Source of the DNA: Caldicellulosiruptor saccharolyticus DSM 8903
GTDB taxonomy: Bacteria; Bacillota; Thermoanaerobacteria; Caldicellulosiruptorales; Caldicellulosiruptoraceae
NCBI RefSeq assembly: GCF_000016545.1
Contig: NC_009437.1
Coordinates: 1,937,394-2,001,393 of the forward strand
DNA length: 64,000 nucleotides
Reading direction: 5' to 3'
This document shows, piece after piece, positions 4,456-56,614 of the stretch; within the stretch, counting starts at the first letter, position 1, and each line of letters opens with the position of its first letter. The notes under the pieces are model-generated. The model did no database searches. It was given only the letters and a program-made list of their open reading frames with translations, and was not told where the DNA came from. The translations under genes were made by a program, and so were the position numbers.

Positions 4456-5451
4456 ATGGAATATACAATATTTGTACCTGTTATTTTCAAAGAGGATAAA
4501 CTTCAAAAGGTCAATTCACTTTTATCTCTTATTGAGAGCAAGGTTAGTAAACAGAAGAAAATAATAGTAGGGATATATACAAATACATTTTTGGATGAGG
4601 TTTTGATAAATCAGTTAAAACTTTTTGATGACTGTCAGGTTTTTATATATCCAAATAGTAACTTTAGTTTTTATGAAGGTCCATACATTGAGGCAGTTAC
4701 AAAAAGTATAGAAGAGTTCAAACCTCAGATGGTGGTAGCACTTTCAGATGAGTTTATGAAGTCAGTTTTGGCAAGGGTTGCAGCAAGGTTTTCAGCAGGC
4801 TTTGCAGTTGATTGCTTTGACATACAGTTTGACGAATCATTTGAAAAGTTTATCTTTTTAAAGCCTGCATATGGTTCAAATATAAATGCTAAAATCTCTA
4901 TAAAGGACTCTCCTATTACATTCGTTACCATAAAATCCAAAAGTGGTATTGAATGCTTATATAAGAGCCCAAAAAATGTTGGAATTTCTAGGAAACAAGT
5001 AGAAATTGAAAATAAAGCTGGTCAGATTAGCTTTATAGAAAAAATTGTGATTGAAACTATTGATAACAAACTTGAAAGTGCTAAAATAGTTATTGGTGTC
5101 GGGAGAGGAATTAAAGACAAAGAAAATCTAAAGTATGCTTTTGAGCTTGCAGATCTTTTAGGTGGTGCAGTTGGTGTTACACGACCTCTTGTTGATTTGG
5201 GATGGGCTGACAAAGAGCTTCAGATTGGACAGAGCGGCAAGATTATCTCTCCTGATGTTTATTTTGCATTTGGTATATCAGGTGCTGCTCACCACATCTG
5301 TGGAATTGGAAAGCCAAAGCTCTTGATTGCAGTAAATAAAAACAAAGATGCAGAGATATTTAAAATTGCAAACTATGGAATTGTAGCAGATGCAACACAA
5401 ACTATGAAGTCTTTTATTAGAGTGTTTAAAGAGAGGTTGGAAAAGTGTTAA
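4456..5451 (+). CDS. etfA: Electron transfer flavoprotein subunit alpha
   Basis: A 331-residue ETF large subunit. The C-terminal FAD domain shows VIGVGRGIKDKENLKYAFELA near residue 215, then GGAVGVTRPLVDLGWADKELQIGQSGK, and the FAD-contact segment SPDVYFAFGISGAAHHICGI near residue 275. In the last motif the usual GAIQH reads GAAHH. The N-terminal domain is divergent but of normal length. It is third in the bcd-etfB-etfA operon after a 42-nt gap, with AAGGGGGTT as ribosome binding site. No ferredoxin-like extension is present, so the subunit is of the simple two-domain type. Confidence 0.87.
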   Translation: MEYTIFVPVIFKEDKLQKVNSLLSLIESKVSKQKKIIVGIYTNTFLDEVLINQLKLFDDCQVFIYPNSNFSFYEGPYIEAVTKSIEEFKPQMVVALSDEFMKSVLARVAARFSAGFAVDCFDIQFDESFEKFIFLKPAYGSNINAKISIKDSPITFVTIKSKSGIECLYKSPKNVGISRKQVEIENKAGQISFIEKIVIETIDNKLESAKIVIGVGRGIKDKENLKYAFELADLLGGAVGVTRPLVDLGWADKELQIGQSGKIISPDVYFAFGISGAAHHICGIGKPKLLIAVNKNKDAEIFKIANYGIVADATQTMKSFIRVFKERLEKC

Positions 5452-49028: not shown

Positions 49029-50174
49029 ATGAGATTCTTGGACGCAGGTGAAACACACGGCAGATGCTTAGTAGGAATTATTGAAGGATTTCCAGCAAAT
49101 GTAAAGATCAATATTGATAATATCAATAGACTTTTAGAACTTCGCCAAAGAGGTTATGGTAGAGGCAAGAGAATGGAAATAGAAAAAGACAAAGCTACAA
49201 TTCTGTCAGGTGTGAGAAACTCATATACAACAGGAGCGCCTATTACAATAATGATTGAGAACAGAGATTATGTAAATTGGCAAAAATATATGGATCCAAT
49301 TTTATGCGACACTATGACTAAAAAGGTTACTGTACCACGTCCTGGGCATGCTGATTTGCCTGGCTGTCTTAAATATGGATTTGACGATGCAAGACCTGTG
49401 CTGGAGAGGGCAAGTGCGCGTGAGACTGCTATGCGTGTTGCAATAGGGGCTTTATGTGAAGAGCTTTTGAATGTTTTTGGTATAAAACTCTACAATCACG
49501 TTGTTGAAATAGGCGGGGTCAGAATCAAAAAAGAGTATAGTACTGACGATGTAAATTTATTCGAGGAGGCGGAAAACTCTGACCTTTTTTGTATTGACAA
49601 AGAAGCTGAAAATGATATGAAGCAGGTAATAGATAGCGCAAAAGAAGCGGGAGATAGTGTTGGTGGTGTTGCTGAGGTAATTTGTAAAAATGTACCTTTT
49701 GGTCTTGGAAGTCATGTACACTGGGATAGGAAACTTGACGGACTGCTTGCTCAGGCTGTTATGAGCATCCAGTCTGTTAAAGGCGTTGAAATTGGAATGG
49801 GATTTGAAGTATCAAGAAGGTTTGGTAGTGAAGTGCATGATGAGATTTTTTACGATGATCAAAAAGGCTTTTATAGAAAGACAAACAATGCAGGTGGTAT
49901 TGAAGGTGGAATTTCCAATGGTATGGATATTGTAATAAGGGCTGCTTTCAAGCCAATTCCGACATTGTACAAGCCACTCAGAAGTGTAGATTTACAAGGT
50001 TTAAAGGAAAAAGAAGCAGCAGTTGAAAGATCAGATACTTGCGCTGTACCAGCAGGAAGTGTTGTAATGAGGGCTGCTGTAGCTTATGTATTAGCAAATA
50101 GCTTGATTGACCGCCTGTCAGGTGATTCTTTAGATATCATGATAGATAATTACAAAAGATTGTACCAGAAGTAA
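49029..50174 (+). CDS. aroC: Chorismate synthase
   Basis: A 381-residue shikimate-pathway enzyme that needs reduced FMN. Signatures are LDAGETHGRCLVGIIEGFP at the N-terminus, RQRGYGRGKRMEIEKD near residue 38, RPGHADLPGCLKYGFDDARP near 105, and ERASARETAMRVA near 128. The SDTCAVPAGSVVMRA end is also typical. The ATG at 49029 follows GGGGTG; the longer frame from 48999 lacks a binding site. It stands apart from other aromatic genes, although a TRAP gene is elsewhere in the window. Confidence 0.95.
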   Translation: MRFLDAGETHGRCLVGIIEGFPANVKINIDNINRLLELRQRGYGRGKRMEIEKDKATILSGVRNSYTTGAPITIMIENRDYVNWQKYMDPILCDTMTKKVTVPRPGHADLPGCLKYGFDDARPVLERASARETAMRVAIGALCEELLNVFGIKLYNHVVEIGGVRIKKEYSTDDVNLFEEAENSDLFCIDKEAENDMKQVIDSAKEAGDSVGGVAEVICKNVPFGLGSHVHWDRKLDGLLAQAVMSIQSVKGVEIGMGFEVSRRFGSEVHDEIFYDDQKGFYRKTNNAGGIEGGISNGMDIVIRAAFKPIPTLYKPLRSVDLQGLKEKEAAVERSDTCAVPAGSVVMRAAVAYVLANSLIDRLSGDSLDIMIDNYKRLYQK

Positions 50175-50187
50175 AAGATGGATACAT

Positions 50188-50231
50188 ACCCCCTACATTA
50201 AAAACTCAAAATAAGTTGTAGGGGGTGTTTT
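50188..50231 (+). promoter_or_regulatory. Hairpin enclosing the dacF ribosome binding site; possible terminator/RBS switch
   Basis: ACCCCCTACA at 50188-50197 pairs perfectly with TGTAGGGGGT at 50217-50226 across a 19-nt loop, followed by GTTTTTG. The 3' arm contains AGGGGGTG, the only ribosome binding site of the next gene. The structure can act as a weak terminator of aroC or hide the binding site. Confidence 0.6.
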
Positions 50232-50236
50232 TGTAT

Positions 50237-51370
50237 ATGTCCAAGAAAATCAAGTTTTCTGTTCTATTGGTTATAGTAAGTTTAAGGATTTTAAGCTATT
50301 CTAATGAATGCTATGCAGGTTTGAAATGTGACATTCAAGTCACTGCAAAATCGGCAATAGCAATAGAATGGATTACAGGCAAAATTTTATTTGAGAAAAA
50401 CAAAGATTTAAAGCTCCCTATGGCAAGTACTACTAAAATAATGACAGCGATACTGGCGATAGAAAATTGCGACCTCAACAAGGAGATTGAAATTCCTGCT
50501 CAAGCTATTGGTGTTCCTGGCTCGTCGATTTATTTAGAAAAAGGTGAAAGGCTTAAAATAATTGAGCTTTTATATGGACTTATGCTTGCCTCTGGCAACG
50601 ACGCTGCGGCTGCTTTGGCAATTAGCGTTTGCGGAGATGTTAAAAAGTTTGTTAATTTAATGAACAAAAAAGCAAAAGAGCTTGGACTTGAGAATACTAT
50701 GTTTTCCTCCCCACACGGGCTTGAAGAAGGAGAACATTACACTACCGCACATGATTTAGCACGTCTTACTGCTTATGCCATGAAAAATCAGACATTTAGA
50801 GAAATTGTAAGCACAACTCAAAAGGAAATAAGGTGGACAACAAGACCATATAGTAGAGTTTTAAAAAATAAAAACAAGATGCTAAAATCTTATCAAGGTG
50901 CAGAAGGTGTTAAGACAGGGTTTACTAAAAGAGCCGGCAGATGTCTTGTCACCTCTGCTTGCCGAGATGATTTTAGGGTTATTTGTGTTGTGCTCAACGC
51001 ACCTGATATGTGGAATGATACTAAAAAAATTCTTGATTTTGCATATCAAAATTACAAAATTCTCAAAATTGCCAGAGGAGAGATTGGTTATTTGAGAGTA
51101 AAAGATTCAAAGGAGAATTGGATAAAATTGGGGATAACAGAACAAAATATTTTTGTTTTGACAAAGGACCAGTATCCAGGTCTCAATGTTGTGATTTCAA
51201 AGAAGGTTTCAGCACCAGTTAAAAAGTATACAGAGGTAGGGAAGCTTGAGATAAAATATGACCATCAAACCTACTCAGTTCCTATTGCGACTCTTCAAGG
51301 ATGTCAGAGAAAAACCTTTTGGGACAAGTTAAAAGAGAGGTTTTTCGGGCAGAAAGCCTCTCAAAAATAA
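50237..51370 (+). CDS. D-alanyl-D-alanine carboxypeptidase (DacF/PBP5-like)
   Basis: A 377-residue secreted low-molecular-mass penicillin-binding protein, with a signal peptide at residues 1-27 ending around CYAG. Active-site motifs are SxxK in PMASTTKIMTAILAI near 61, SGN in LASGNDAAAALA near 120, and KTG in GVKTGFTKRAGRC near 222. A PBP5 C-terminal domain follows, and the end (KLKERFFGQKASQK) could be an amphipathic membrane anchor. ATG at 50237 is preferred with AGGGGGTG about 9 nt upstream; TTG at 50231 is another choice. It is the second enzyme of this family in the window; the first has a full C-terminal helix. Confidence 0.87.
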   Translation: MSKKIKFSVLLVIVSLRILSYSNECYAGLKCDIQVTAKSAIAIEWITGKILFEKNKDLKLPMASTTKIMTAILAIENCDLNKEIEIPAQAIGVPGSSIYLEKGERLKIIELLYGLMLASGNDAAAALAISVCGDVKKFVNLMNKKAKELGLENTMFSSPHGLEEGEHYTTAHDLARLTAYAMKNQTFREIVSTTQKEIRWTTRPYSRVLKNKNKMLKSYQGAEGVKTGFTKRAGRCLVTSACRDDFRVICVVLNAPDMWNDTKKILDFAYQNYKILKIARGEIGYLRVKDSKENWIKLGITEQNIFVLTKDQYPGLNVVISKKVSAPVKKYTEVGKLEIKYDHQTYSVPIATLQGCQRKTFWDKLKERFFGQKASQK

Positions 51371-51410
51371 ATTTAGCGTGGGCTTTAGCCACGCTAAATT
51401 TATTTACTTT
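51366..51410. terminator. Terminator between dacF and the HPr-like gene
   Basis: AATAAATTTAGCGTGG at 51366-51381 pairs perfectly (16 bp) with 51389-51404 across a 7-nt loop. It starts in the last codons of dacF and ends at the stop of the convergent HPr-like gene, so it serves both. Confidence 0.8.
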
Positions 51411-51634
51411 TCTATAAACGGCTCAAGCTCTTTTAATAGGTCTTCGCAATTGTCTGAATGAATCTCTACCTTAATAGGCTTGCTGAGATCAAGGCTGAAT
51501 ATGCCCATGATTGACTTTGCATCAACTACGTACCTGCCAGATGTTAGGTCAATGTCAAATGGATACTTACTAACAATGTTGACAAAATTCTTAACTGAAT
51601 CAATTGTGTTTAGTCTTACTGTTACTGTTTTCAT
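51404..51634 (-). CDS. HPr-like protein lacking the phospho-accepting histidine (Crh-like)
   Basis: A 76-residue protein of the HPr fold. The second half is clearly HPr: DAKSIMGIFSLDLSKP, with Ser41 at the position of regulatory Ser46, then VEIHSDNCEDLLKELEPFIE. The first half should contain the GIHARP active site, but reads RLNTIDSVKNFVNIVSKY with no histidine, so it cannot pass phosphate in the sugar PTS. This is the pattern of Bacillus Crh, which acts with CcpA after Ser46 phosphorylation, although the exact substitution differs. GGGAGGAA precedes the ATG. It is a single gene with its own promoter. Confidence 0.82.
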   Translation of the reverse strand: MKTVTVRLNTIDSVKNFVNIVSKYPFDIDLTSGRYVVDAKSIMGIFSLDLSKPIKVEIHSDNCEDLLKELEPFIEK

Positions 51635-51678
51635 TTTAAATTCCTCCCTTCACAACTAAAATAATACTCACATTTATT

Positions 51679-51707
51679 ATCATACATATTTTTAAGACTT
51701 AAATCAA
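51679..51707 (-). promoter_or_regulatory. Probable promoter of the HPr-like gene
   Basis: On the minus strand TTGATT (51707-51702) and TATGAT (51684-51679) are separated by 17 nt, about 45 nt before the ATG. Confidence 0.5.
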
Positions 51708-51861
51708 TTAACCTCTTACACATTTTCTATACCCTTTTTTCATTAAAAAATAACAATCCATTTTGATTTTCATAAAAAAGGCTGAAAAGCAATTATGACT
51801 CTTTATTTATTGTAAGCTAAATATTATAATATAACTTAAACATGGAGGTGAATGTTATACG

Positions 51862-53166
51862 TTGAAAATTGCTTTTTATACACTTGGGTGCAAGGTAAAT
51901 CAGTACGAAACACAGGCTATTGCTGAAACCTTTGAAAGATTGGGTTATGAGATAGTAGACTTTGACCAAGAAGCAGATATATACGTTATAAACACATGCA
52001 CAGTTACAAATGTAAGTGACAGAAAGTCAAGACAGGCAATAAAACGAGCTAAAAAGACATCACCAGATAGTATAGTTGTTGTAATGGGGTGCTATCCGCA
52101 GGTTTACCCGCAAGAGGTTCAAAAGATTGAGGGAGTTGATATAATTGTTGGTACAAGGGATAGAGAAAAGATTGTAGAGTATGTAACCGAATATTTAAAA
52201 CAGAAAAAGAAGATTTTAGCTGTTAATAATGAATATAAAAGGGATACTTTTGAAGAGTTAAAAATTTCAAGCTTTAATGAGAGGACGAGGGCTTTTATAA
52301 AAATAGAAGAAGGTTGCGAACAGTTTTGTTCTTACTGTATAATTCCATATGCAAGAGGTTCTGTTGTGAGCAGAAGCTTAAGTTCCATTTTAGACGAGGT
52401 ACAAAGACTTGCTTCAAATGGGTACAAAGAGTTTGTAATTACAGGTATTAATATCTCAGCATATGGCAAAGATTTGGATTATAAGGTTACACTTGTTGAT
52501 GTAATAGAAGAAATTAGCAAGATTGAAAAGGTAAGACGAATTAGGTTGAGTTCTCTTGAGCCAATTGTTATGAAAGAAGATTTTATAAAAAGATTAGTAA
52601 AGATAGAGAAGTTATGTCATCACTTGCATCTGTCACTTCAAAGTGGAAGTGACAAGATTTTGAAACTTATGAATAGGCACTATACAACTGATGAGTACAG
52701 ACAAATTGTAGAGATGGTAAGAGGTTATTGGAATGATGTTGCTTTTACAACAGATATTATCGTGGGTTTTCCAGGGGAGAGTGATGAGGATTTTGAAAGG
52801 ACTGTAGAGTTTGTAAAGGAGATAGGATTTTCAAGAATTCATGTTTTTAGGTTTTCACCCAAAAAAGGTACAAATGCATATAATATGCCATATCAAGTAA
52901 ATAGTGCAGAGAAAGAAAAGAGAAGCGAGATTTTAAAAAGTGTAGCAAGAAAACTTTCATTTGGTTTTCACAAAAAGTTTGAAGGGAAAATAGTGGATGT
53001 TTTAATAGAAGAAAACTCAAGCTTAGAAGGATATTTTGAAGGGTACTCGGGAAATTACATTCGTACACTTGTTCCAAAAACAGAGTCAATTAGAGTTGGT
53101 GAAATTTACAAGGTCAAGGTGAAGGAAGCTTTTGAGCAGTATGTTATTGGTGATATAATATTTTAA
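51862..53166 (+). CDS. mtaB: tRNA (t6A37) C2-methylthiotransferase MtaB
   Basis: A 434-residue radical SAM enzyme that thiomethylates t6A37 in tRNAs reading ANN codons. The MTTase N-terminal domain has FYTLGCKVNQYETQA and NTCTVTNVSDRKSRQ, with cysteines for one cluster completed by MGCYPQ. The radical SAM motif CxxxCxxC is GCEQFCSYCIIPYARG near residue 153. LHLSLQSGSDKILKLMNR near 255 and a C-terminal TRAM domain follow. The start is TTG; GGAGGTG is 13 nt upstream, rather far. TATAAT at 51825-51830 is probably its -10. pheST follows closely. Confidence 0.92.
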   Translation: MKIAFYTLGCKVNQYETQAIAETFERLGYEIVDFDQEADIYVINTCTVTNVSDRKSRQAIKRAKKTSPDSIVVVMGCYPQVYPQEVQKIEGVDIIVGTRDREKIVEYVTEYLKQKKKILAVNNEYKRDTFEELKISSFNERTRAFIKIEEGCEQFCSYCIIPYARGSVVSRSLSSILDEVQRLASNGYKEFVITGINISAYGKDLDYKVTLVDVIEEISKIEKVRRIRLSSLEPIVMKEDFIKRLVKIEKLCHHLHLSLQSGSDKILKLMNRHYTTDEYRQIVEMVRGYWNDVAFTTDIIVGFPGESDEDFERTVEFVKEIGFSRIHVFRFSPKKGTNAYNMPYQVNSAEKEKRSEILKSVARKLSFGFHKKFEGKIVDVLIEENSSLEGYFEGYSGNYIRTLVPKTESIRVGEIYKVKVKEAFEQYVIGDIIF

Positions 53167-53183
53167 AAAAGGTGGTGTTTGTT

Positions 53184-54206
53184 TTGAACATTGACATCTC
53201 AAACTTAAAAGTTCAGTGTATGGGTGAAATAGCAAATGTTAAAAATTTAAAAGAACTTGAAGAGTTTCAAATAAAGTATTTAGGGAAAAAGGGTATTGTT
53301 AAAAATATGCTAAAAGAACTCTCCACCCTCCCTTCGGACAAGAGAGCACAAGCTGGAAGACAGTTGAATGAACTGAGAGACTTTATTGAATCCCAGATAA
53401 ATGAGTTACGCAAAAAATTTGAGGAAGAGGAAAAACAAAAAAGAATACAAAAAGAGAGAATTGATGTTACAATACCAGGAAAAAGAGTGGAAGTAGGGGC
53501 AATTCATATCCTGTCGCAGGTACAAAAAGAGATTAGTGAGATATTTTTAAGCATGGGCTATGAGATTGCTGAGGGACCTGAGGTAGAGCTTGACTATTAT
53601 AACTTTGAAGCTTTGAATATTCCTGCGGACCATCCAGCGCGTGACACTCAGGATACTTTTTATATCTCAGATGATGTTTTGCTAAGAACACATACATCAC
53701 CAGTTCAGATTCGAGTTATGAAGAGCAAAAAGCCCCCAATTAAAATAATTTCACCTGGAAGAGTTTACAGATCTGATGAGGTTGATGCAACACATTCGCC
53801 TATTTTTCACCAGATAGAAGGACTTTTTGTGGACAAAGGGGTTACAATGGCTGATTTGAAAGGAACGCTTGAGGTTTTTGCAAAGAGGTTTTTTGGTGAA
53901 GAAACAAGAGTAAGGTTCAGACCTCATCATTTTCCGTTTACCGAACCATCTGCTGAGGTTGATATCTCATGTATATTTTGTGGGGGAAAAGGGTGTAAGA
54001 CTTGCAAAGGAGAAGGGTGGATTGAAATCTTAGGTGCAGGAATGGTACACAGAAAGGTTTTGGCAAATTGCGACATTGACCCAGATGAATACACAGGGTT
54101 TGCATTTGGTATGGGTGTTGAAAGGATAGCGCTGTTGAAATATGAGATTGAGGATATTAGACTTTTTTATGAAAATGACCTGAGATTTTTGAAACAATTT
54201 AGATAA
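53184..54206 (+). CDS. pheS: Phenylalanine--tRNA ligase alpha subunit
   Basis: A 340-residue class II synthetase subunit. It has an N-terminal coiled-coil arm (residues 10-90, rich in Lys and Glu). The catalytic domain follows, with GYEIAEGPEVELDYYNFEAL near 118, DTQDTFYI near 150, the motif 2 loop RVYRSDEVDATHSPIFHQIE near 190, and motif 3 GFAFGMGVERIALLKY near 305. A small CxxC-type insert (CIFCGGKGCKTCKGEGW) is seen. The TTG at 53184 has AGGTGGTG 6 nt upstream. No T-box leader fits in the 17-nt gap after mtaB. Confidence 0.94.
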   Translation: MNIDISNLKVQCMGEIANVKNLKELEEFQIKYLGKKGIVKNMLKELSTLPSDKRAQAGRQLNELRDFIESQINELRKKFEEEEKQKRIQKERIDVTIPGKRVEVGAIHILSQVQKEISEIFLSMGYEIAEGPEVELDYYNFEALNIPADHPARDTQDTFYISDDVLLRTHTSPVQIRVMKSKKPPIKIISPGRVYRSDEVDATHSPIFHQIEGLFVDKGVTMADLKGTLEVFAKRFFGEETRVRFRPHHFPFTEPSAEVDISCIFCGGKGCKTCKGEGWIEILGAGMVHRKVLANCDIDPDEYTGFAFGMGVERIALLKYEIEDIRLFYENDLRFLKQFR

Positions 54207-54241
54207 AAATTGAATTTAAGTTACAAAAGGAGTGAAGGGTT

Positions 54242-56614
54242 TTGAAGGTATCTCTTGAGTGGCTAAAAAGCCTTGTTGAGATAGACTGTTCTGTTGATGA
54301 ACTTGTTGAGAAGCTCACAATGAGTGGAACAAAAGTTGAAGGGTATGAGAAAAGACTTGATTCTGTCAAAAATGTAGTTGTTGGCAAGATATTGGATGTA
54401 TTTTTGCATCCAGAGAATCCTAATTTGTTTGTTTGCAAGGTTGATGTAAGGGAATGTGTATTGACAATAATCACCGCTGCTAAAAATATTTATAAAGGTG
54501 CTTTTGTGCCTGTCGCAAAACCTGGTGCAAGTCTGGCAAACGGCAAGGTGATTGACAAGTTAGAATTCAAAGGTGTTGTATCAGAAGGCATGCTTTGTTC
54601 CTTAGATGAGCTTGGACTGACAAGTGCTGAGTTTCCTTATGCTGATGAGGATGGAATTTTCATTATTGAAGGTATAGATGATAACAAACTTGGAGTTGAT
54701 ATAAAAGAGGCTTTAAAGATAGACGATATAATTATAGACTTTGAGATAACATCTAATAGGCCAGACTGTTTGAGTGTTGTTGGTTTAGCAAGAGAGATTG
54801 CAGCTGTTTTGAAGAAAAAATTAAAATTTCCGAACTTAAGCTATATAGAAGTTGATGACAAAATAGAGAATTATCTTGATAAAATTGAGATTCAAGATGG
54901 GAATATTTGTAGAAGGTATATTGGCAAGGTGATAAAAAATGTAAATATTGGACCATCACCTGAATGGCTTAGAAAAAGACTTATAGCCTGTGGTGTTCGT
55001 CCAATAAATAATATTGTAGATGTTACAAACTACGTAATGCTTGAAATAGGTCAGCCTCTTCATGCATTTGATTTGAGAAAAATTCATGGCAGAAATATCT
55101 TTGTGAGACTTGCAAATGATGATGAAGAGATTATTACTCTTGATGGTGTAAAAAGAACTTTGAGGCCCGTGGATATAGTAATTGCGGATGAAGATAGGGC
55201 AATTGCAGTAGCTGGTGTGATGGGTGGCTTGGAAACAGAGGTTGACGAAAATACTAAAACGGTGCTGCTTGAGTCGGCTACATTCAACCCTGCAATGGTG
55301 CGAAGAACTTCAAGGTATTTAGGTCTTAGAACAGAAGCATCAAACAGGTTTGAAAAAGGTCTTAGCCCTTACTTTGCGGAGGTTGCAATACAACGAGCAT
55401 GTGCACTTATTGAAGAAATAGGAGCTGGTGAGGTTGTAAAAGGCACAATAGACACTTATTTAGTTCCTCAGCAGCAGGTCACAGTCAAAGCCGATTTTTC
55501 GTATATAGAAAAGTTGCTTGGAGTAAGTGTACCACATGATAATGTAATTGAAATCTTAGAAAGGCTTGAAATTTTGTATGACAGCCAAAAAAATGTTTTT
55601 ATTGTTCCACCATTTAGGGTTGATATTATTGATATGGCAGATATATCTGAAGAAGTAATAAGAATCTACGGTTATGACAAAATACCCTCAAGAGTTTATA
55701 TGGGAAATGCAATCTCCTCAGGACTTACTCAAAAACAAAAGATGGTAAATGACATCAAAAGTTTCCTTGCAAATAATGGTTACTATGAGATTTATTCGTA
55801 TTCTTTTGAATCACCGAAAGTTTATGAGATTTTAAAAGGGTACAGTTTAGATGATGCTGTTAAAATTTTAAATCCGCTTGGAGAAGATTTTTCGATTATG
55901 AGAATGCAACTTTTAAGTTCAATCCTCAAAGCAATCAATCTTAATCTTTCACGAAATATCAAAGATATTAAGATATTTGAACTTGCGCCTGTGTTCAAAA
56001 AATCAAACGATAAGTTGCCAGATGAAAAGCTTGTATTGGCATTAGGAAATATTGGGCAGGACTTCTACTTTGTAAAAGGAACTTTGGAAAACCTTTTTGA
56101 TTTGCTAATGATTGAAGATGTAGAATTTTCTTCTGACCATACTAATTTAAATCTGCATCCAACGAGGTCTGCGAAAATTACATCAAAAGATAAAATAATA
56201 GGGTATATTGGTGAGGTCCATCCAGATGTTTTAAGTGGTTTTGACATTCAAGGAAGGGCAATATATGCTGAAGTTTACATTGATAAGCTTTTAGAGCTTG
56301 AAAAAAAGAAAAAGAAATATGTACCACTCCCCAGATATCCAGCTATTGAAAGAGATTATGCATTTTTGGTACCTGACGAGATTGAAAGCAGAGTAATTGA
56401 AGATGTATTTAAAAAATATGCGTCAGAGATTTTAGAAGAGTTTTATTTATTTGATGTTTACAAGGGACAGCAGATAAAAGAAGGATTTAAAAGCTATGCA
56501 TACAAAGCAGTTTTCAGATCAAAAGAAAAGACATTGTCAGACGGCGACATCTTGCCATTACAAGAAAAGATATTAGGCGAGCTAAAAAATTACAATATTG
56601 GTCTTAGGGAGTAG
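54242..56614 (+). CDS. pheT: Phenylalanine--tRNA ligase beta subunit
   Basis: A 790-residue large subunit of the heterotetramer. Domains in order are the tRNA-binding EMAP-like domain (about 40-150), the B3/B4 editing domain (about 205-380, with EITSNRPDCLSVVGLAREI near 165 just before it), the B5 domain (400-470), the inactive synthetase-like core (480-690), and the anticodon-binding FDX-ACB domain at the end (PRYPAIERDYAFLVP, DVYKGQQIKEGFKSYAY). AAAGGAGTGA precedes the TTG start. The length fits the bacterial family. Confidence 0.94.
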   Translation: MKVSLEWLKSLVEIDCSVDELVEKLTMSGTKVEGYEKRLDSVKNVVVGKILDVFLHPENPNLFVCKVDVRECVLTIITAAKNIYKGAFVPVAKPGASLANGKVIDKLEFKGVVSEGMLCSLDELGLTSAEFPYADEDGIFIIEGIDDNKLGVDIKEALKIDDIIIDFEITSNRPDCLSVVGLAREIAAVLKKKLKFPNLSYIEVDDKIENYLDKIEIQDGNICRRYIGKVIKNVNIGPSPEWLRKRLIACGVRPINNIVDVTNYVMLEIGQPLHAFDLRKIHGRNIFVRLANDDEEIITLDGVKRTLRPVDIVIADEDRAIAVAGVMGGLETEVDENTKTVLLESATFNPAMVRRTSRYLGLRTEASNRFEKGLSPYFAEVAIQRACALIEEIGAGEVVKGTIDTYLVPQQQVTVKADFSYIEKLLGVSVPHDNVIEILERLEILYDSQKNVFIVPPFRVDIIDMADISEEVIRIYGYDKIPSRVYMGNAISSGLTQKQKMVNDIKSFLANNGYYEIYSYSFESPKVYEILKGYSLDDAVKILNPLGEDFSIMRMQLLSSILKAINLNLSRNIKDIKIFELAPVFKKSNDKLPDEKLVLALGNIGQDFYFVKGTLENLFDLLMIEDVEFSSDHTNLNLHPTRSAKITSKDKIIGYIGEVHPDVLSGFDIQGRAIYAEVYIDKLLELEKKKKKYVPLPRYPAIERDYAFLVPDEIESRVIEDVFKKYASEILEEFYLFDVYKGQQIKEGFKSYAYKAVFRSKEKTLSDGDILPLQEKILGELKNYNIGLRE

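Follow-up and report, generated by a model that had tools for sequence, protein, structure and literature searches.

The window, a 64,000-nucleotide stretch of Caldicellulosiruptor saccharolyticus DSM 8903, encodes a 76-aa HPr-fold protein that has kept the Ser46 segment of HPr and lost its histidine loop. This serine-only HPr belongs to a family that forms a clade separate from HPr and Crh, co-occurs with hprK and, in some genomes, is the only HPr-domain protein found. Judging from these features, the protein probably serves signalling only, its Ser41 (Ser46 in HPr) being switched by HprK/P, viewed as the kinase of HPr (and Crh) in catabolite repression, and acts on a partner of its own.

The gene, its product and the predicted fold

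The gene is a minus-strand open reading frame with an ATG start, and its translated product is MKTVTVRLNTIDSVKNFVNIVSKYPFDIDLTSGRYVVDAKSIMGIFSLDLSKPIKVEIHSDNCEDLLKELEPFIEK. It lies among the following features (positions in the window):

51404..51634, minus strand: gene for the serine-only HPr-fold protein (open reading frame; PF00381, 31.4 bits; AlphaFold2 pLDDT 94.9; Ser41 equals HPr Ser46)
51491..51523, minus strand: codons of residues 38-48, DAKSIMGIFSL, the serine segment of HprK type that the protein has kept (translation)
51587..51610, minus strand: codons for NTIDSVKN (residues 9-16), the site of the HPr GIHARP loop (alignment with 35 HPr and 15 Crh rows)
51642..51651, minus strand: purine-rich ribosome-binding site GAAGGGAGGA, just 5' of the gene (sequence)
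51365..51405, no strand assigned: hairpin of 17 pairs that overlaps the stop codon of the serine-only HPr gene and has T-rich tails on either strand (terminator scan and sequence)
51862..53166, plus strand: mtaB (TIGR01579, 464.7 bits against a cutoff of 357), divergent from the serine-only HPr gene across a 227-bp gap

The hairpin is likely a terminator common to the serine-only HPr gene and the convergent D-Ala-D-Ala carboxypeptidase gene, and given its own ribosome-binding site and the hairpin at its stop, the serine-only HPr gene is probably a single-gene transcript. This agrees with the sequence-only reading, in which the gene stands alone and away from ptsI: the latter adjoins the true ptsH elsewhere in the genome. 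"Alone" holds for the transcription unit only, mtaB being a conserved divergent neighbour (75 of 84 copies at 80 loci). No regulatory RNA was found between the two genes at Rfam gathering scores (positions 50000-54500), and promoter-like sites numbered 4 against 3.3 expected. One cre-box match with a single mismatch falls at 51620-51633, but as the window holds 7 such matches against 5.5 expected by chance, it was not counted as evidence.

The protein belongs to the HPr-fold superfamily by both profile and predicted structure. It matches the Pfam PTS-HPr family (PF00381) above the cutoff of 23 bits, at profile positions 19-80 only, so that the His15 end of the profile is absent, while none of the NCBIfam HPr models was reached at its cutoff (TIGR01003, 24.1 of 47.9 bits). 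The AlphaFold2 model, built with 78 sequences, has the strand-helix order of HPr. The top Foldseek matches were all HPr structures, and VIA likewise ranked HPr first (Z up to 10.3), the matches including 1kkl, in which HPr is bound to HprK/P, as well as 1rzr and 1zvv, in which CcpA is bound to HPr or Crh.

A serine site kept, a histidine loop lost, and the distinction from HPr and Crh

The alignment comprises 83 rows of the family, 35 of HPr and 15 of Crh; the window protein appears in it under two names (L003 and WINDOW), so that 82 family rows are distinct. HPr positions 12-15 are a gap in all 83 family rows, against a histidine in 35 of 35 HPr rows, which had themselves been sorted by the GxHARP motif; the gaps indicate that the active-site loop has been shortened, beyond mere substitution. 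The sequence-only reading had described GIHARP as replaced by a sequence without histidine, and indeed no histidine precedes residue 59 of the window protein, but the loop is also about five residues shorter. Judged from the sequence, enzyme I would be chemically unable to pass phosphate to the protein, given the known role of His15 and the absence of the loop that carries it. Ten of 203 distinct members have a histidine within residues 7-16, none of them in a GIHARP motif.

The remodelling extends to HPr position 17, where the arginine has a role in the contact between HPr and CcpA. The five commonest residues of the family rows there are Asn (31), Asp (26), Glu (10), Ser (5) and Thr (3), so that Asn, Asp or Glu stands in 67 of 83, whereas Crh has Arg or Lys in 14 of 15 (R9 K5 N1) and HPr likewise has Arg or Lys. 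Also typical of the family (HPr numbering, 83 rows) are Lys20 (70), Phe51 in place of Met51 (77) and Asp54 (72).

The serine segment, said in the sequence-only reading to be well conserved, proved so: KSIMG is present in the window protein, in the segment DAKSIMGIFSLDL, and Lys45, Ser46 and Gly49 (HPr numbering) are kept in 83, 82 and 82 of the 83 rows. Ser is retained in 202 of the 203 distinct members, a count to be read with the fact that the 80 bacterial loci kept for study were found by peptide patterns containing or adjoining the Ser segment, its presence there being partly by construction. Among 97 members found without a peptide pattern, the near-invariant residues are K40 (97/97), S41 (96/97) and G44 (95/97), compared with a top-residue frequency that averages 0.61 across all columns. 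The single loss is an Asn for Ser in L124 (NAKNVDDVFSLDL; genome G355), although hprK is present there. A mirror image of the family was seen in genomes of the same class, where the HPr-type proteins L227, L229, L240 and L251 keep His15 with Arg or Lys at Ser46.

The family is widespread in gut and heat-loving bacteria, and the window gene is more than a chance open reading frame. At least 572 relatives were confirmed in a scan of species genomes, the 80 kept being 58-76% identical and coming from Clostridia in the broad sense. In the window's class, a profile search gave a member scoring at least 92 bits in 30 of 34 genomes (counted by eye); in the other four (G015, G018, G032 and G033) all matches score 25-35 bits, as ordinary HPr does. 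A maximum-likelihood tree of the 133 rows separates the family from all 50 HPr and Crh rows with a branch support of 99/94, and Crh rows are scattered at several places among the HPr rows. The split implies that the family is an old branch of its own, neither a recently broken HPr nor Crh. It is apparently uncharacterised: no recognisable description of it was found in open-licence papers, PMC4634974 has no occurrence of Crh, HPr-like, paralog, hprK mutant or S46, and the available parts of PMC10766802, PMC11212667, PMC2405797 and PMC4574613 do not name it.

The 2.97-Mb genome has three HPr-domain genes. Besides the window gene, these are the second HPr with His15 that the sequence-only reading had proposed to look for (L001; GLHARP, beside ptsI) and a Crh (L002; SSRG where HPr has HARP), preceded by what we take to be whiA. 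One EIIC adjoins ptsHI, so the organism is not PTS-free. Of the two regulators proposed alongside the second HPr, hprK is present once, intact and at full length, which removes one ground on which the sequence-only reading would have been refuted; a clear ccpA was not recovered, in that no LacI protein of the genome reached the NCBIfam equivalog cutoff (best 246 of 442 bits). Inspection of nine LacI proteins of the genome by eye against a CcpA motif left one candidate, L269, which presumably keeps the Arg of the CcpA contact with Ser-P.

In its fold, its KSIMG segment and its passing of the PF00381 cutoff, the protein is thus like HPr, from which it differs in its shortened loop without His15, the loss of Arg17, its length (76 against about 87 aa), its position away from ptsI, its score below the TIGR01003 cutoff and its separate clade. 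Like Crh, it has no His15, keeps Ser46 and is not expected to have a PTS role; unlike it, Crh retains the loop length and Arg or Lys at position 17 and branches among the HPr rows. Membership in Crh, as the label "Crh-like" would have it, was therefore rejected, for the genome has its own Crh, the family stands apart from HPr and Crh together, and Arg17 and the full loop are gone.

The protein might still function as Crh does, namely as a second or third co-repressor whose Ser-P form binds CcpA at the HPr site and brings about cre-dependent repression. The retained Ser segment would suit such a role, as would the Arg of L269. So would the available text of two papers, according to which CcpA-type control occurs in T. 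saccharolyticum together with HPr, HprK and Crh (PMC3526391) and Crh-Ser46-P docks on CcpA at the HPr site (PMC4591507), although unphosphorylated His15 is also said to contribute to HPr-CcpA binding (PMC3526391). We nevertheless regard this role as unlikely, since the genome already has a Crh from which the family splits in the tree, position 17 is mostly Asn, Asp or Glu rather than the Arg or Lys of Crh, Met51 has given way to Phe, and no CcpA scores above the equivalog cutoff. As far as the sequence goes, a CcpA partnership of the serine-only HPr is unproven.

Co-occurrence with HPr kinase, and copies in phages

In the class of G150 (273 genomes), hprK, scored above its Pfam cutoff, is found in 142 of the 143 genomes that carry the family and in 70 of the 130 that do not (Fisher p 1.7e-22, which overstates the case, the genomes not being independent). 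hprK is common in this class (212 of 273), and shared ancestry may explain part of the co-occurrence. The one exception, G591, is 95% complete and has the family and no hprK match. In a phylum-wide sample, which overlaps that of the class, the family occurs in 30 of 398 genomes, and hprK in 30 of these 30 compared with 103 of 398 overall (counts by eye). The candidate substrate is thus found with its putative kinase both in its own genome and across the class.

Among 39 hand-picked family-bearing genomes, eight have hprK and the family but no other PF00381 match: G419, G485, G502 and G533 (coded family f156), G437 and G457 (f174), G574 (f194) and G633 (f204). They are 95-99% complete and span four coded families; the absence of ptsH could stem from assembly gaps. 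HprK is of full length and has its P-loop in the three that were fetched (G419, G485 and G633). The members of G437 and G457, flagged as having an internal stop, read intact, and the other six copies keep the KS site. With no other PF00381 match, the eight genomes have neither HPr nor Crh, which leaves the family as the only HPr-domain candidate for HprK.

Because the Ser segment is kept and the family is tied to hprK, the family protein is likely phosphorylated on Ser by HprK/P. In the available part of PMC9674922, the authors, working on C. difficile, write that other HprK substrates cannot be excluded. The serine-only HPr, conserved, tracking hprK and sometimes its sole HPr-domain companion, is a directly testable candidate for such a substrate.

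A protein search of phage records returned nine members, one of them annotated as a phosphocarrier protein and six of them from isolated Enterocloster bolteae phages of about 100 kb; a scan of viral contigs added 28 loci. The sequences fetched, all from phages of Clostridia, cover six phage records (of the nine) and every one of the 28 contigs:

L277, 5001-5237 (OQ326496.2): phage member
L278-L282: the other phage loci
L283-L310: viral contigs

Members, one or more per locus, occur in all 34, and the Ser is kept throughout, its presence in the 28 contigs being partly by construction, since they were found by patterns containing or adjoining the Ser segment; the six sequences found without a peptide pattern keep it too. 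The model of a viral protein has the same layout (pLDDT 94.9). PHROGs has no family for the nine phage proteins or the window protein, giving marginal chance matches only. One viral contig (L297/L298) carries three copies (1731-1967, 4754-5002 and 5007-5249), two of them in tandem, among genes matching the FolD and thymidylate synthase families. A tree with 31 viral rows, which bears on the origin of the phage copies, has too few columns and poor support; it shows 16 label changes.

An alternative is a decoy or buffer role towards HprK/P, in which the protein would compete with HPr for the kinase and set the level of HPr-Ser-P with no partner of its own, the phage copies being counter-regulators that keep host sugar uptake open. 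That phages carry the gene, one with three copies, would fit, and so would the conservation pattern, in which conservation peaks at the Ser segment and the remainder of the protein drifts, viral copies included. Yet the eight genomes above retain the family and hprK with no HPr or Crh to protect, and the strong conservation of the further family-specific residues F17, K15, F46 and D49 points to a partner surface; we therefore hold a decoy role to be quite improbable.

Gene neighbourhood and a possible partner

The divergent mtaB neighbour, so frequent at the 80 loci, accompanies 56 of the 108 whole-genome copies scoring 42 bits or higher, a set that includes divergent members chosen on purpose, and it is not adjacent in Thermoanaerobacter-like genomes and several other groups; we read the adjacency as old synteny, not joint function. 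A phosphorylation-independent adaptor, tied for example to MtaB and tRNA modification and with a structural Ser segment, could call on this neighbour and on the Ser-to-Asn member L124 but is scarcely credible, given the lineages in which mtaB is not adjacent, the tracking of hprK by the family (142/143) and the dispensability of Ser for HPr structure, as in the S46D crystal structures 1sph and 1opd.

Most family copies have no sugar genes beside them. A single paralogue, in G421, hints at a tie to ABC-sugar catabolism. It is the last gene of a one-strand run (L265, 240-8352), its start overlapping the 3' end of the gene for a PfkB sugar kinase; the run has a LacI regulator at its head and includes a solute-binding protein, two ABC permeases, a beta-helix protein, GH32 and PfkB.

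We thus favour a signalling-only HPr-fold protein with a partner of its own, a mechanism in which HprK phosphorylation, the direction of the response and the identity of the partner are inferred. Its histidine loop being absent, the protein would take no phosphate from enzyme I, and bifunctional HprK/P would most likely phosphorylate and dephosphorylate Ser41 according to the glycolytic state. The phospho-form would then most likely dock on its target via the remodelled helix-1/helix-2 face. This target is probably not bound via the standard CcpA contacts; we place the partner outside CcpA because the His15/Arg17 side is replaced, and our best guess would be other LacI-family sugar regulators or metabolic enzymes. 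The non-CcpA partners of HPr- and Crh-Ser-P cited in the available part of PMC8004850, RbsR and GapA, are a precedent for an HPr fold with a LacI-type regulator or an enzyme as its target, although they bind HPr or Crh.

On a broader scale, we tentatively propose that Clostridia may run a second, PTS-independent output of HprK/P via a serine-only HPr of ancient origin, to which the kinase would be confined in some lineages for want of any other HPr-domain protein, and that their large phages may have acquired the gene, perhaps more than once, so as to redirect or disable the carbon-state signal of an infected host. A serine-only substrate of HprK would bear on sugar preference in gut and lignocellulose-degrading Clostridia, and the phage copies, if the proposal is true, would be a novel way for phages to influence the carbon signalling of their hosts.

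The family also varies in copy number and arrangement. A second, divergent paralogue type (DIDIYYNR or DIDVYYNR, with DAKSILGV) was seen at L156, L160 and L165 (genomes G150, G566 and G646), directly upstream of a large conserved open reading frame on the same strand. Tandem duplicates stand beside mtaB in bacterial genomes at L035, L050 and L074. At L040, L051, L056 and other Lachnospiraceae-like loci, the gene is inverted between mtaB and a further gene run, which we take by eye to encode ThiI, cysteine desulfurase, RsmE and PrmA.
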